A program made the position numbers and the translations under genes. From positions 62,001 to 126,000 of the forward strand of contig NZ_UZWD01000023.1 in assembly GCF_900631955.1 (NCBI RefSeq): DNA of 64,000 nt. Reading direction: 5' to 3'. Numbering within the stretch: the first letter of the stretch is position 1; each line of letters begins with the position of its first letter. The notes under the pieces were generated by a model. It was not told where the DNA came from, did no database searches, and saw only the letters and a program-made list of their open reading frames with translations. This document shows positions 13,547 through 23,174 of this stretch, one piece after another. The DNA comes from Devosia equisanguinis (GTDB taxonomy: Bacteria; Pseudomonadota; Alphaproteobacteria; Rhizobiales; Devosiaceae).

Positions 13547-14422
13547 CTAAAAATTGGACCGACCGGTGAGGCGCAGACAGAGGTCATCGAGCTGTTCGAG
13601 CGTCTTGTAGCGAATCTCGAGCTTCCCGCCCCGCTCCGAATAGTTGAGAGCAACGGTGAGCCCCAGGGCGTCAGCGAGCCGACGTTCCAGGGCCTGGGTG
13701 TCGGCATCTTTACTGGCTTCGGCGGGCACTGGGCGCTTCTGGGGCAGTTCCCGCTGCTGGCTCAAGGCCTCGGCATCACGAACCGAGAGCCCTTTGTCGA
13801 CGATCTGTCTTGCCAATGCGGCCGGGTCTTCCACCGTGATCAGGGTGCGTGCGTGACCTGCGGTCAGCGTGCCGCTCGCCACCATGCTGCGCACTTCCTC
13901 GGGCAGGCGCAACAGGCGCAAAGTGTTGGCGACATGCGACCGGCTCTTGCCGATCACCTGCGCGAGATCTTGCTGCGTATATTCGAACTGCTCGATCAGC
14001 TGACCATAACCCATTGCTTCTTCAAGCGGATTAAGGTCGGCGCGCTGCACGTTCTCGATAATGGCCAGCTCGAGCGCTTCCTTGTCATCGACCTCACGCA
14101 CGATGACAGGAACATCGTGTAGCCCCGCCTTCTGCGCTGCGCGCCACCGCCGTTCGCCGGCGATAAGCTCGAAGACATTGGGATCATCGGTCGGCCGCAC
14201 CAGCAGGGGCGACATGACGCCCTTTTCACGAATGGAATTGGTCAGCTCCTCGAGCTGATCGGCATCAAAGGTCCGCCGCGGATTGGCACGATTAGCGATG
14301 ATGAAATCGACGGGAAGGCGCTTACCCGACGACGACTCGGTGACCCGCGCCCCTTCCATAGAGGCCATGTCGCCAATCAGCGCCGCGAGCCCACGCCCCA
14401 ATCGTGTCGGTTTGTCGGTCAT
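13547..14422 (-). CDS. parB: Chromosome partitioning protein ParB (CTPase, parS binding)
   Basis: A 291-residue ParB/Spo0J. The ParB/Srx CTP-binding domain spans about 32-125, with GERRWRAAQ and ENVQRADLNPLEEA. The helix-turn-helix that reads parS is about 140-170 (TQQDLAQVIGKSRSHVANTLRLL region), and a C-terminal dimer domain is at about 230-291. Two adjacent ATGs occur; the second (14422) has better spacing from AGGAG. It follows parA by a few bases. Matching parS sites lie in the next 7 kb. Confidence 0.96.
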   Translation of the reverse strand: MTDKPTRLGRGLAALIGDMASMEGARVTESSSGKRLPVDFIIANRANPRRTFDADQLEELTNSIREKGVMSPLLVRPTDDPNVFELIAGERRWRAAQKAGLHDVPVIVREVDDKEALELAIIENVQRADLNPLEEAMGYGQLIEQFEYTQQDLAQVIGKSRSHVANTLRLLRLPEEVRSMVASGTLTAGHARTLITVEDPAALARQIVDKGLSVRDAEALSQQRELPQKRPVPAEASKDADTQALERRLADALGLTVALNYSERGGKLEIRYKTLEQLDDLCLRLTGRSNF

Positions 14423-14431
14423 CATCGTCTC

Positions 14432-15253
14432 CTAGGCTGCATTCAGCCGCCGCTCGCGGCGGATCACTTCGGTGGCCAGGCGCAGATAGGCCTGGCTGCC
14501 GGCGCATTTCAGGTCATAAAGCAATGCCGGCTTGCCGTAAGACGGCGCCTCGCTGAGCCGGACATTGCGGGGAATGACCGTGTCATAGACCAGTTCACCC
14601 ATTTCGCTGCGCACATCCGCCAGCACCTGCTCGCTGAGATTATTCCGCTTGTCGAACATGGTCATCACCACGCCCTGGATCGACAGGCGCGGATTGAGGG
14701 TAGACCTGATCTGCTCGATGGTCTGCAGCAACTGGCTCAGGCCTTCGAGCGCAAAAAATTCGCACTGCAGAGGCACCAATACGGCATCGGCGGCGACGAG
14801 GGAATTGACCGTCAACAGGTTGAGCGAGGGTGGACAGTCGATGAGAATATAGCTGACAGGAAGCTCATTGATCACCAACTCCCCCAATTGCTTGAAGGCG
14901 TTGCGAAGCTTGAACGCGCGGTCGGCCTGACCGGCAATGGTCAACTCAACGCCCAGCAAATCCATGGTCGAAGGCACGATGGCGACATTGGGGACCGTGG
15001 TCATGATGGCAGCCTCAGCCACGCTGGCTTCGCCAACCAGCACGTCATAGGCCGACACGGCGCGGTCGGTGCGCGAGATGCCGAGACCGGTGGAGGCATT
15101 ACCCTGCGGGTCGAGATCGACAATGAGCACACGCTCGCCGATGGCCGCCAGGGCCGTTGCGAGATTGATCGCGGTGGTGGTTTTGCCAACACCGCCTTTT
15201 TGATTGGCCAGGGTGAGAATCCGGGGTGCCAAACTGGCCTCCACTTCTGCCAC
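14432..15253 (-). CDS. parA: Chromosome partitioning ATPase ParA
   Basis: A 273-residue Walker-type ATPase that moves ParB-parS complexes. The deviant Walker A is NQKGGVGKTTT (about 17-27), then DLDPQGNASTGLG and DCPPSLNLLT. No N-terminal DNA-binding extension, as usual for chromosomal ParA. The start is GTG, overlapping the rsmG stop by one base (TAGTG). Part of the rsmG-parA-parB run. Confidence 0.97.
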   Translation of the reverse strand: MAEVEASLAPRILTLANQKGGVGKTTTAINLATALAAIGERVLIVDLDPQGNASTGLGISRTDRAVSAYDVLVGEASVAEAAIMTTVPNVAIVPSTMDLLGVELTIAGQADRAFKLRNAFKQLGELVINELPVSYILIDCPPSLNLLTVNSLVAADAVLVPLQCEFFALEGLSQLLQTIEQIRSTLNPRLSIQGVVMTMFDKRNNLSEQVLADVRSEMGELVYDTVIPRNVRLSEAPSYGKPALLYDLKCAGSQAYLRLATEVIRRERRLNAA

Positions 15254-15900
15254 TAGAGCTGGGATTTCCGGCGTAGCTGGCTGAGAGTGAGTATCACGCC
15301 GCCGGGATCCGTATCACTGCTCGTGGTTACCACGTCATAGGACCATAAAGCATCCGATTCCGCGAGTTCTTCAACATGTTCCCGCCCCTTATGCAGGATT
15401 GCGCGGGTTTCCGTACCAAAAAATGGCTCCATCCAGCTGCAAAGTTGCGGCAGAGCTGCCAAGGCCCGGGAGGTGATCACATCGGGCACGCCTGTTTCAC
15501 GTGAATCAATCTGATCGCTGCGTCGGCCGATCACCGTGACATCCAGCGCGAGTTCCCGGGCCACCGTGCGCAGAAAGCTTACCTTGCGCGCCGTTGGCTC
15601 GACCAGAATGAAGCGCCGTTCACTGCCTTTCGTTGCAATCGCCAGGGGTAGCGCTGGAAATCCACCGCCGCTTCCCAGATCTAGGAAAAATTTGTCGCTG
15701 CCTCTCAGAAGCGGCAGGACCTGCAGGCTGTCGGCGAAGTGACGCTGCCAGACGAGATCGAGTGTTTCACGTGAAACAAGATTCTGTACGGCCTGCCATT
15801 TGCGCAGCAACGCAGCATAGCGTTCCAAATCCGCGCCCACGGCGTCCAAGCCACGCGCAAAATGCGGGGCATAATTTCGGATCGACGAAAAATCCCCCAT
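15253..15900 (-). CDS. rsmG: 16S rRNA (guanine527-N7)-methyltransferase
   Basis: A 215-residue SAM-dependent methyltransferase (GidB). The SAM loop is LDLGSGGGFPALPLAI (about 72-87), followed by the family motifs ILVEPTARKVSFLRTV and ITSRALAALPQL. It overlaps mnmG upstream and parA downstream by single bases. Two parS sites lie inside the coding sequence. Confidence 0.95.
   Translation of the reverse strand: MGDFSSIRNYAPHFARGLDAVGADLERYAALLRKWQAVQNLVSRETLDLVWQRHFADSLQVLPLLRGSDKFFLDLGSGGGFPALPLAIATKGSERRFILVEPTARKVSFLRTVARELALDVTVIGRRSDQIDSRETGVPDVITSRALAALPQLCSWMEPFFGTETRAILHKGREHVEELAESDALWSYDVVTTSSDTDPGGVILTLSQLRRKSQL
15493..15508. promoter_or_regulatory. parS: parS site (15 of 16 match)
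   Basis: TGTTTCACGTGAATCA, one base away from the ParB consensus TGTTTCACGTGAAACA. Located within rsmG, about 1 kb from parB. Confidence 0.8.
15763..15778. promoter_or_regulatory. parS: parS site (perfect)
   Basis: TGTTTCACGTGAAACA, the full 16-base palindromic ParB nucleation site, inside the 5' part of rsmG. It is the only perfect copy noticed in the window. Confidence 0.93.
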
Positions 15901-17792: not shown

Positions 17793-17808
17793 TGTTTCAC
17801 GTGAATCA
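17793..17808. promoter_or_regulatory. parS: parS site (15 of 16 match)
   Basis: TGTTTCACGTGAATCA in the 101-base gap between mnmE and mnmG. Confidence 0.8.
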
Positions 17809-17850: not shown

Positions 17851-17863
17851 TGTTTCACGTGAA

Positions 17864-17866
<3 letters not shown>
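17851..17866. promoter_or_regulatory. parS: parS site (15 of 16 match)
   Basis: TGTTTCACGTGAATCA, 58 bases from the previous site. It overlaps the last codon and stop of mnmE. Confidence 0.8.
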
Positions 17867-21092: not shown

Positions 21093-22130
21093 CTAGCCTT
21101 TGATCATGCCAATCAGCGCCTCGACATGGGCGATCGGCGTTTCCGGCACGATACCGTGGCCGAGATTGAAGATATGCGGCCGATTTGAAAAGGCCTCCAG
21201 GATCGCCCTGACCTGGCTCTCCATCGCCTCGCCACCAACCACGAGACGCAGGGGATCGAGATTGCCCTGCAGCGGCAGGTCGGCTGGCAAGGCATTGCGC
21301 ACGAAATCGAGCGGGGTCGAATAATCGATACCCATGGCATTGATCCCGACCTCGCGCGCATATCGCGGCAGATTGCCGGCAGCGCCACGGGGAAAGCCGA
21401 TAATAGGCGCATTGGGGACGCGGGCCCGTACGCCCTCGACGATGCGGCGGTTGGGCGCGATGACCTGGCGGGCAAAAGCGGCGTCATCGAGATTGAGGGC
21501 CCAGCTTTCAAACAGTTGCACCACATCGGCGCCGGCTTGCAACTGGGCCACCAGATAATCGACGCTGGTGGCCACAAGGATATCCATCAGCCGATCGAAA
21601 GCCTCGGGATGCTGCAGCGCAAATTTGCGCGCGGTCCATTGGTCCGAGGAGCCACGACCACCCAGCATATAGGTCGCCACCGTCCAGGGAGAGCCGCAGA
21701 AGCCGATCAGGGTCTTGTCCGCTGGCAGGCTCGCTCGCAGGCGCCGCACCGTCTCCAGGACCGGCGCCAGATGGCTCATGGCCCGGTCGCGATCGAGCCG
21801 AGCCACATCATCGGGGCCGAGAGGCTCGAGGATTGGGCCCTCCCCCGTTTCGAAGCGAACCGATTGGCCCAGCGCGTCGGGAATGACCAAAATGTCGGAA
21901 AACAGGATTGCCGCATCGAGGTCGAAGCGACGCAGTGGCTGCAGGGTCACTTCGACGGCGAGTTCGGGCGTGTAGCAGAGCTCGAGGAAATTGCGGGCCT
22001 TGGTGCGGGTCTCGCGATATTCGGGGAGATAGCGGCCAGCCTGGCGCATGATCCACACCGGGGGGCGTTCCTGGCGTTGTCCCAGAACCGTCGCCAACAA
22101 TCTCTTCTCTGCCACTGGGCTCATGGCCAT
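21093..22130 (-). CDS. hemE: Uroporphyrinogen decarboxylase
   Basis: A 345-residue enzyme making coproporphyrinogen III. The hallmark PPVWIMRQAGRYLPEYRETR sits near the N-terminus, and the catalytic Asp is in AAILFSDILVIPDALG (about 80). GFCGSPWTVATYML and the C-terminal FNLGHGIVPETP are typical. Start at MAMSPV (22130), with MSPV (22124) better spaced from AAGGGG. It forms the left border of the putative replication origin, as in Caulobacter. Confidence 0.96.
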   Translation of the reverse strand: MAMSPVAEKRLLATVLGQRQERPPVWIMRQAGRYLPEYRETRTKARNFLELCYTPELAVEVTLQPLRRFDLDAAILFSDILVIPDALGQSVRFETGEGPILEPLGPDDVARLDRDRAMSHLAPVLETVRRLRASLPADKTLIGFCGSPWTVATYMLGGRGSSDQWTARKFALQHPEAFDRLMDILVATSVDYLVAQLQAGADVVQLFESWALNLDDAAFARQVIAPNRRIVEGVRARVPNAPIIGFPRGAAGNLPRYAREVGINAMGIDYSTPLDFVRNALPADLPLQGNLDPLRLVVGGEAMESQVRAILEAFSNRPHIFNLGHGIVPETPIAHVEALIGMIKG

Positions 22131-22255
22131 AACCCCTTCAAAACCGAAAAAGAGACTCTTTTTCTTATCTTCTTTATCTTTATGACGGTGTTTAGCTGCA
22201 ATTCCGCTCCATCCACAATTGGCCTGCGTGGTGACACTTGCGCGCAGCACCGTCG

Positions 22256-22270
22256 TTAACGCGCTGTTAA
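22256..22270. promoter_or_regulatory. CtrA box (TTAA-N7-TTAA, perfect)
   Basis: TTAACGCGCTGTTAA, full match to the alphaproteobacterial CtrA recognition sequence, in the hemE-maf gap. CtrA represses origin firing in Caulobacter by binding such boxes. Confidence 0.75.
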
Positions 22271-22311
22271 TCTTTGGCGGGCTAGGTGGGAAAGAGGCGT
22301 CGCCACAATGA

Positions 22312-22326
22312 TTAATGAAACGTTAA
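22312..22326. promoter_or_regulatory. CtrA box (TTAA-N7-TTAA, perfect)
   Basis: TTAATGAAACGTTAA, second perfect match, 56 bases from the first. TTAA is rare in this GC-rich sequence, which makes two spaced pairs notable. Confidence 0.75.
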
Positions 22327-22455
22327 TCAGGCCTTTCCCGAGTCAATGATTCGATTCACCCTGTGCATGACCTCTGGAATACCACATCGGCGCCGGGCGG
22401 GGATTTCCCCAGACCTTTCCCATGCTGGTTTTGGCGGGCAGGCAGAGTCCAACTG

Positions 22456-22470
22456 TTAATTTTTAGTTAG
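22456..22470. promoter_or_regulatory. CtrA box-like site (one mismatch)
   Basis: TTAATTTTTAGTTAG, correct 7-base spacing with the last A replaced by G. It lies about 90 bases before maf and could act at the origin or on the maf promoter. Confidence 0.5.
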
Positions 22471-22556
22471 CCAGGTCTAACAAGTCGGCGCCCCTGCCAA
22501 AGTTACGAGTCTTTCCCCCAGTTCCGGCTTGAGCTGGGGATGACAGTGTGGAAAAC

Positions 22557-23174
22557 ATGGGCGCCATGCTCATCCTTGCTTCAAGCAGTGCCACCCGTAA
22601 AGCCTTGCTGGACAAGGCCGGATTGCCATTCACCGCCGTGCCCGCTGCGTTGGACGAGCGCGCTATCGAAGCTGAGGCAGTTGCCGCCGGTGCCGATGGT
22701 CGCGACGTCGCCCTGCTCTTGGCGCGGCACAAGGCCGAGGCCGTTTCCAACAGCTATGCCGGGCGCCTGGTCATCGGTGCGGACCAGACGCTGAGCCTGG
22801 GGCTGGAACTGCTGCACAAGCCCGGCAGCCGCGAGGAGGCCGTTGAACAGCTCGAGCGCCTGCGCGCCAAGACCCATCGCCTGCATGCAGCGGTGACGCT
22901 GGTGCGTGATGGCATCCTGCTCTGGTCCGATGTCCAGACTGCCGAGCTCACCATGCGCGATTTTTCTCCCGAGGAACGTGACGCCGTGCTGGCGCTCGAA
23001 GGCGATAGTATCCTGTCTTCGGTCGGTGGCTACCGGCTCGAAGGACCCTCGATCCGCCTGTTCGAAACCGTTTCGGGTGACTATTTCACCATTTTGGGCC
23101 TGCCATTGCTCCCCCTCCTGGCGGCTTTGCGCGACCTGGCGCCAGACATACTGCAACAGGGCAATGCGCTGTGA
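22557..23174 (+). CDS. maf: Maf-like nucleotide pyrophosphatase
   Basis: A 205-residue Maf/YceF family protein, which hydrolyses non-canonical or modified nucleoside triphosphates. The N-terminus LILASSSATRKALLDKAGLPF is the family signature. The acidic active-site region VIGADQTLSL (about 70-80) and GGYRLEGPSIRLFETVSGDYFTI in the C-terminal half fit well. The canonical second Arg of SSSPRR is replaced (SSSATRK). Starts at GTG 22548, ATG 22557 or ATG 22566 are possible. First gene of the rightward maf-aroE-coaE-dnaQ run. Confidence 0.92.
   Translation: MGAMLILASSSATRKALLDKAGLPFTAVPAALDERAIEAEAVAAGADGRDVALLLARHKAEAVSNSYAGRLVIGADQTLSLGLELLHKPGSREEAVEQLERLRAKTHRLHAAVTLVRDGILLWSDVQTAELTMRDFSPEERDAVLALEGDSILSSVGGYRLEGPSIRLFETVSGDYFTILGLPLLPLLAALRDLAPDILQQGNAL

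Follow-up and report, generated by a model that had tools for sequence, protein, structure and literature searches.

A conserved gap between hemE and maf carrying CtrA boxes as the probable replication origin of Devosia

The gene-free gap between hemE and a maf-like gene in Devosia equisanguinis is probably the replication origin (oriC) of this bacterium, corresponding to the origin beside hemE in Caulobacter, and probably has CtrA as a direct regulator. This reading is the likeliest one because conserved DnaA-box-like elements, CtrA boxes, and GANTC sites occur together only there in the stretches scanned. An earlier note on this DNA had proposed a CtrA-controlled origin at the same place. 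Its position, its conservation, the neighboring parS sites, the constraint on the boxes, and the presence of a CtrA gene speak for the proposal, and the polarity of the motif GGGCAGGG, which does not switch at the site, speaks against it.

The draft genome of D. equisanguinis comprises 4.13 Mb in 79 contigs, and the window, i.e., the whole stretch of DNA that was analyzed, spans 64,000 bases. The HemE protein encoded there is closest to those of named Devosia species, with 82% to D. elaeis. The arrangement described in the earlier note, a gap of 426 bases without genes from which hemE (minus strand) and maf (plus strand) diverge, was recovered as described (Table 1). The hemE start was read from the sequence, and an in-frame ATG at 22131 would add two residues; a GTG at 22548 is a possible alternative start of the maf-like gene, which is followed by aroE, coaE, and dnaQ. 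On the hemE side, the gap is neighbored by hemJ, rho, mnmE, mnmG, rsmG, a ParA-like gene, parB, and four parS sites. The G+C content of the gap is 51%, versus 62.7% for the window, and the AT-rich block that had been claimed beside hemE was measured at 68% A+T. As in hemE-type origins, the region preceding hemE is conserved and faces the maf side, and parABS is close by.

Table 1. Features in and around the hemE-maf gap (window positions; strand given where it applies).
Feature	Position	Strand	Basis
parB	13547..14425	-	TIGR00180 190 bits, above cut-off
ParA-like partition ATPase	14432..15253	-	MinD/ParA family matches below cut-offs; adjoins parB
parS, one mismatch	15493..15508		pattern match
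parS, perfect TGTTTCACGTGAAACA	15763..15778		pattern match
two parS, one mismatch each	17793..17808, 17851..17866		pattern match
hemE, uroporphyrinogen decarboxylase	21093..22124	-	TIGR01464 397 bits, above cut-off
gene-free gap, putative oriC	22131..22556		length and blocks conserved across compared Devosia loci
AT-rich block adjoining hemE, candidate unwinding element	22139..22195		68% A+T; parts conserved in 58 unique Devosia gaps
GANTC (CcrM-type) site 1 of 6	22154..22158		pattern match
DnaA-box-like 9-mer CCATCCACA, two mismatches; core TCCACAAT conserved	22209..22217	+	match, alignment
CtrA box 1, TTAA-N7-TTAA, perfect, TTAACGCGCTGTTAA	22256..22270		pattern match
CtrA box 2, TTAA-N7-TTAA, perfect, TTAATGAAACGTTAA	22312..22326		pattern match
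GANTC sites 2-4 (22340, 22348, 22353), conserved stretch	22340..22357		pattern match, alignment
DnaA-box-like / W-box-like ATTTCCCCA	22403..22411	+	at most one mismatch to TTATCCACA at this place in 21 of 58 Devosia gaps
GANTC site 5	22445..22449		pattern match
CtrA box 3, one mismatch, TTAATTTTTAGTTAG	22456..22470		pattern match
GANTC site 6	22507..22511		pattern match
DnaA-box-like TCATCCCCA, first of pair 12 bp apart	22535..22543	-	two mismatches
DnaA-box-like TTTTCCACA, second of pair, one mismatch	22547..22555	-	pattern match
maf-like gene	22557..23174	+	PRK02478 226 bits, TIGR00172 109 bits, both below cut-offs

Two perfect CtrA boxes and one with a single mismatch had been announced, and all three were located. 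The starts of the perfect boxes are 56 bases apart. Dinucleotide shuffles of the gap yielded at least one perfect box in 29 of 5000 cases and at least two in 0 of 5000. The whole window holds four matches at 0-1 mismatch, three of which fall inside the gap, i.e., in 426 of 64,000 bases. Across the genome, 23 perfect TTAA-N7-TTAA sites were counted versus 18 for a reversed control pattern; single CtrA sites therefore mean little, and the cluster in the gap stands out. Nowhere else in the genome are two perfect boxes closer than 1 kb. The six GANTC sites claimed earlier were likewise counted as six, compared with a shuffle mean of 1.37, and at least six were reached in 9 of 5000 shuffles.

The DnaA-box-like 9-mers of the earlier note are there as weak boxes, one at one mismatch (22547) and three at two, but no perfect DnaA box TTATCCACA was found in the gap. 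Taken by themselves, DnaA boxes proved too weak a guide to the origin. Across the 58 unique Devosia gaps, the place of TTTTCCACA holds one mismatch in 57 and a perfect box in the remaining one. The other DnaA-like places are weak or variable across the genus; that of TCATCCCCA shows one mismatch in 11 gaps, two in 44, and more in 3. Both 9-mers lie on the minus strand, 12 bases apart, within the near-invariant end of the gap beside maf, CTTGAGCTGGGGATGACAGTGTGGAAAA. These 30 bases (22526-22556) could be a DnaA-box pair, a maf leader, or both.

Conservation was assessed on 61 hemE-maf gaps, 54 from the genome set, including the studied genome, and seven from named records. The genome set counted 61 Devosia genomes, and 55 of them were fetched. 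Of the other six, G017, G038, G050, G054, and G056 had a HemE match and were left out, and G051 gave no match. The HemE search of named genomes returned mostly unrelated phyla, and seven Devosia loci were used together with three others, labelled Robiginitomaculum, Hyphomonadaceae, and Cytophagaceae. L037, whose fragment has no maf, three non-Devosia loci, and L109, with a broken maf match, a gap of 726, and three perfect boxes, were dropped before the counts. After removal of three duplicates, 58 unique sequences were aligned.

The gap measures 426-459 bases between the protein matches in all 61 loci, and 60 of them carry at least one perfect CtrA box; the remaining one, L089, has three boxes with one mismatch. 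In the alignment, box 2 is perfect in 55 gaps, with one mismatch in two and five in one. Box 1 is perfect in 27, with one mismatch in 30 and five in one, and the place of box 3 holds one mismatch in 42 and two to four in 16, with no perfect case. When the spacing of TTAA pairs was varied from N0 to N20, N7 occurred 85 times, and the next commonest, N17, 18 times. Other conserved blocks include parts of the AT-rich stretch, TCCACAAT, GCGCGCAG, and the GANTC-rich block. The divergent genome G019 (L106) has just one GANTC site in its gap. On the strength of this alignment, the CtrA boxes in the Devosia gap are under clear constraint.

Outside Devosiaceae, 62 gaps were examined from a set of 152 genomes, covering 34 of the 43 other families. 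The best-scoring loci and one or few per family were taken, the boxes being disregarded; L228 was dropped as a duplicate of L160, and for L156, L169, and L171 the first 450 bases were used, since neither neighbor gene was found. These gaps hold 33 perfect CtrA boxes versus 1.16 expected from shuffles. At least one perfect box occurs in 27 of the 62 gaps and in 16 of the 34 families, and 35 gaps have none. Here too N7 prevails, with 33 TTAA pairs and at most 7 at any other spacing from N0 to N20. The positions of the boxes in the gap vary between families, and the N7 enrichment persists. By this pattern evidence, CtrA boxes mark the gap in many Hyphomicrobiales. Of the other Devosiaceae, three genera were sampled; perfect boxes number two in one of them and are missing from the remaining two. 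The gaps L166 and L168 (family f38, Hyphomicrobiales) each contain two perfect boxes and 10-11 GANTC sites. The gap is followed by a PF03618-type gene, presumably RP001/ppsR, in 53 of the 62 loci. This gene was absent in the seven Devosiaceae genomes searched and in G112, and because it is missing the gap meets maf directly in Devosia.

The partition genes also agree with the earlier description, which had placed parS and parAB within 9 kb: parB, a ParA-like ATPase, and four parS sites at 4.3-8.6 kb were found on the hemE side. The gap sits beside the only parS cluster of the genome at 0-1 mismatch, and in 16 of 16 genomes all parS sites at this threshold lie about 4-9 kb from hemE. In each of seven Devosia stretches of 100-520 kb, the gap also ranked first among 450-base windows when CtrA, DnaA, and GANTC content were scored together. 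Within the stretches scanned, no rival origin-like cluster was found, and in those of three genomes no other 450-base window matched the CtrA score of the gap.

A CtrA orthologue is encoded at G000:C26:96299-96901. It is 95% identical to the CtrA sequence used as query, and the next match in the genome reaches 38%. By gene predictions that used a simple score of ORFs and codons, none of the 20 perfect CtrA sites outside the window falls inside a gene. Some of these sites precede fliX, flgB, rcdA, a GGDEF protein, peptidoglycan hydrolases (transglycosylases and a cell-wall hydrolase), or a sigma-54-dependent response regulator of the NtrC/AtoC/FlbD class, below the FlbD cut-off. Such genes resemble known CtrA targets. 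Further neighbors are unlike CtrA targets, such as a P450 and several proteins without family, and the site L283 has no predicted gene close by. The position before target-type genes suggests that the motif is used elsewhere in the genome. As in Cori-type origins, then, boxes beyond chance and conserved are accompanied by a CtrA orthologue and by the motif at other, putatively functional places. The locus L293 has perfect boxes at G000:C76:176740 and 179516, about 93 and 95 kb from hemE, preceding a PAS_5 protein and a protein without Pfam match.

A working model can be drawn from these elements. DnaA would assemble on weak boxes, namely the 22535-22555 pair beside maf, the 22403 box, and the TCCACAAT element, and the assembled DnaA would open the AT-rich block beside hemE. 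Phosphorylated CtrA would bind at 22256 and 22312, and more weakly at 22456, in between these elements. Bound CtrA might keep DnaA off until CtrA is removed, a step carried over from what is described for Caulobacter (PMC4468827), and the GANTC sites may report the replication state through CcrM. We infer binding, repression, unwinding, and origin activity at the gap from sequence, and the same control logic as in Caulobacter, suggested in the earlier note, would hold by analogy.

It is possible, though doubtful, that the gap is the origin and that its CtrA boxes serve in transcription, at the promoters of hemE and maf or for an origin transcript, instead of controlling DnaA access; this would be compatible with the origin half of the preferred reading. 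Two divergent genes start at the gap, and hemE begins about 125 bases from box 1 and about 181 from box 2. CtrA acts chiefly as a transcription factor, and the remaining perfect sites that were fetched precede genes or lie between them. In 5 of the 6 gaps of family f23, a CtrA box precedes the hemE match by 2-6 bases, and for these boxes control of a promoter is as likely. However, pairs of perfect boxes less than 1 kb apart occur nowhere else in the genome; the most similar place, L286, combines one perfect box with two that carry a single mismatch. The CtrA score of the gap, unequalled by the 450-base windows of the scanned stretches in three genomes, also points away from ordinary promoters, as do the differing positions of the boxes among families in which N7 boxes stay enriched.

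An observation at odds with an origin exactly at the gap comes from GGGCAGGG, which we take to be a KOPS-like, FtsK-type polarity motif. In the one-contig relative G025, its polarity marks the terminus cleanly, at 1.63-1.75 Mb. In none of ten Devosia genomes was a polarity switch seen at the hemE-maf gap. Over 0.5-85 kb on the maf side, these genomes together show 122 '-' to 11 '+' sites, non-independent among the ten, which is left-replichore polarity; the ratio of '-' to '+' is 22:1 in the studied genome, 6:2 in G019, and 6:3 in G059. By gene strand, the maf-side counts are 75:6 in plus genes and 32:4 in minus genes. The corresponding counts in G025 are 22:1 and 19:5 for left-replichore samples and 6:15 and 0:26 for right-replichore samples. 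The split counts match the left replichore of G025, unlike the right one, and the maf-side 85 kb is therefore left-type. Codon usage makes up part of the effect, since the expected frequency of sense CCCTGCCC is about four times that of sense GGGCAGGG. It was rejected as the whole cause, since minus-strand genes also show 32 '-' to 4 '+'.

Left-type polarity ends near +80-95 kb in G025, G027, G010, and G029, and earlier, at about +50-67 kb, in G019; in the studied genome no switch was seen up to +92 kb from hemE. Further out the polarity is mixed, and the region 85-222 kb of G025 shows the codon pattern only. On a coarse map of G027, the change would fall at +249 to +313 kb. Coarse maps of GGGCAGGGNCG in G112 and G153, which belong to other families, are sparse, that of G153 being noisy, and are compatible with a switch near hemE; a finer count over 0-85 kb in G112 gave 3 '+' to 1 '-'. 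For this one marker, unchanged for about 80-90 kb past the gap in most of the ten Devosia genomes, the test for a strand-polarity switch, a correlate but not a defining trait of hemE-type origins, speaks against the exact site. It is unlikely, yet conceivable, that the polarity axis and the CtrA/DnaA/parS element are held apart by about 80 kb or more across Devosia, with an origin-proximal segment running the wrong way in ten genomes. Either replication would then start far from the CtrA-bound control locus, or near-origin polarity would be set by something besides fork direction.

An explanation to which we give little probability is that replication starts at least 80 kb away on the maf side and that the hemE-maf element is an ancestral or auxiliary locus for DnaA and CtrA binding. 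The left-replichore polarity over the 85 kb past the gap in ten genomes, with its end at +80-95 kb in four, would agree with such a displaced start, as would the gene order of G025 and G027, which breaks and inverts from about +75 kb. These two genomes are collinear from +1 to about +75 kb. Past this collinear block, several inversions and transpositions are found from about +75 to +170 kb from hemE. The studied genome shares its order with both from -8 to +38 kb, beyond which genes are rearranged or unmatched. Against a displaced start, no window near +80-100 kb comes near the CtrA, DnaA, and GANTC content of the gap in any of seven stretches, and parS stays beside hemE. A hemE-side origin has also been measured in Hyphomonas, according to the mapping work on that genus (PMC6650430).

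Measured from hemE, the terminus antipode falls at -252, -2, +146, +309, -8, and +40 kb across six genomes, with a mean of about +39 kb, and is compatible with a hemE origin as well as with a displaced site. GC skew, put forward earlier as a check, was uninformative, as neither the window nor 35 sampled 20-kb stretches of G025 gave a usable minimum. Fourfold-site GC skew by gene strand was dropped as a marker, being patchy and negative in 12 of 15 G025 groups, on both replichores; taken literally, it would also fail to put the origin at hemE.

An origin near dnaA, as in many other bacteria, is very improbable. In 16 Devosia genomes that have hemE and dnaA on the same contig, the dnaA gene does lie toward maf, about +155 to +507 kb away (three of the distances derive from rounded lengths), and polarity in G025 is mixed from about +90 to +220 kb. 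However, no DnaA-box cluster was found near dnaA in G027, parS is absent there, and the terminus antipode, averaged over six genomes, lies 158 kb from dnaA toward hemE (single values range from 461 kb in that direction to 49 kb past dnaA). That the CtrA boxes merely reflect chance or the composition of an AT-rich intergenic region in a G+C-rich genome can be dismissed almost entirely, since, although the genome-wide number of perfect sites is barely above the reversed control, shuffles, the spacing control, and conservation refute it at the sequence level.

CtrA control of the origin is the textbook switch of Caulobacter. If the boxes described here are bound, direct CtrA control of initiation would be widespread in Hyphomicrobiales, the model species may have lost or replaced it, and a tree could show where it was gained and lost. 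Devosia would offer a convenient soil bacterium for testing such control.

The origin of Caulobacter crescentus, Cori, adjoins hemE (PMC6650430) and contains five high-affinity CtrA sites (PMC4468827). The Devosia gap, preferred here as a CtrA-regulated origin, is like Cori in being hemE-adjacent and parABS-linked, with weak DnaA boxes and multiple CtrA boxes. It differs in its fewer CtrA boxes, in the direct adjacency of maf with the PF03618 gene missing, and in being known here from its sequence. In Hyphomonas neptunium, where neither GC skew nor DnaA boxes had given a clear answer, marker frequency located the origin near hemE, with parAB about 7 kb away (PMC6650430); a CtrA ChIP signal adjoins this origin (PMC7200025). 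The hemE-side location, the nearby parAB, and the uninformative GC skew reported there (PMC6650430) recall Devosia. In contrast, Hyphomonas belongs to the Caulobacterales (PMC8116508), not to the Hyphomicrobiales, and CtrA binding was measured there, whereas Devosia is represented by sequence.

Sinorhizobium meliloti and Brucella have origins that presumably lie on the hemE side, as in Devosia. They belong to the same order, yet their origins are reported without CtrA binding: in S. meliloti neither a CtrA motif nor binding is described at the origin (PMC4433202), and CtrA of B. abortus is stated not to bind it (PMC2877005). These accounts bear out the remark in the earlier note that a link between CtrA and the origin is less often shown in Hyphomicrobiales, and the candidate origin of Devosia would carry conserved CtrA docking sites of a kind described as lacking at the origins of the relatives studied best. 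Among titles and the opening parts of abstracts, no paper on the Devosia origin was recognized; in the one paper that combines Devosia, CtrA, and a replication origin, the genus comes up once, for c-di-GMP genes. Beyond these groups, the origin of Rickettsia prowazekii is cited as possibly another alphaproteobacterial origin with CtrA sites (PMC4468827).
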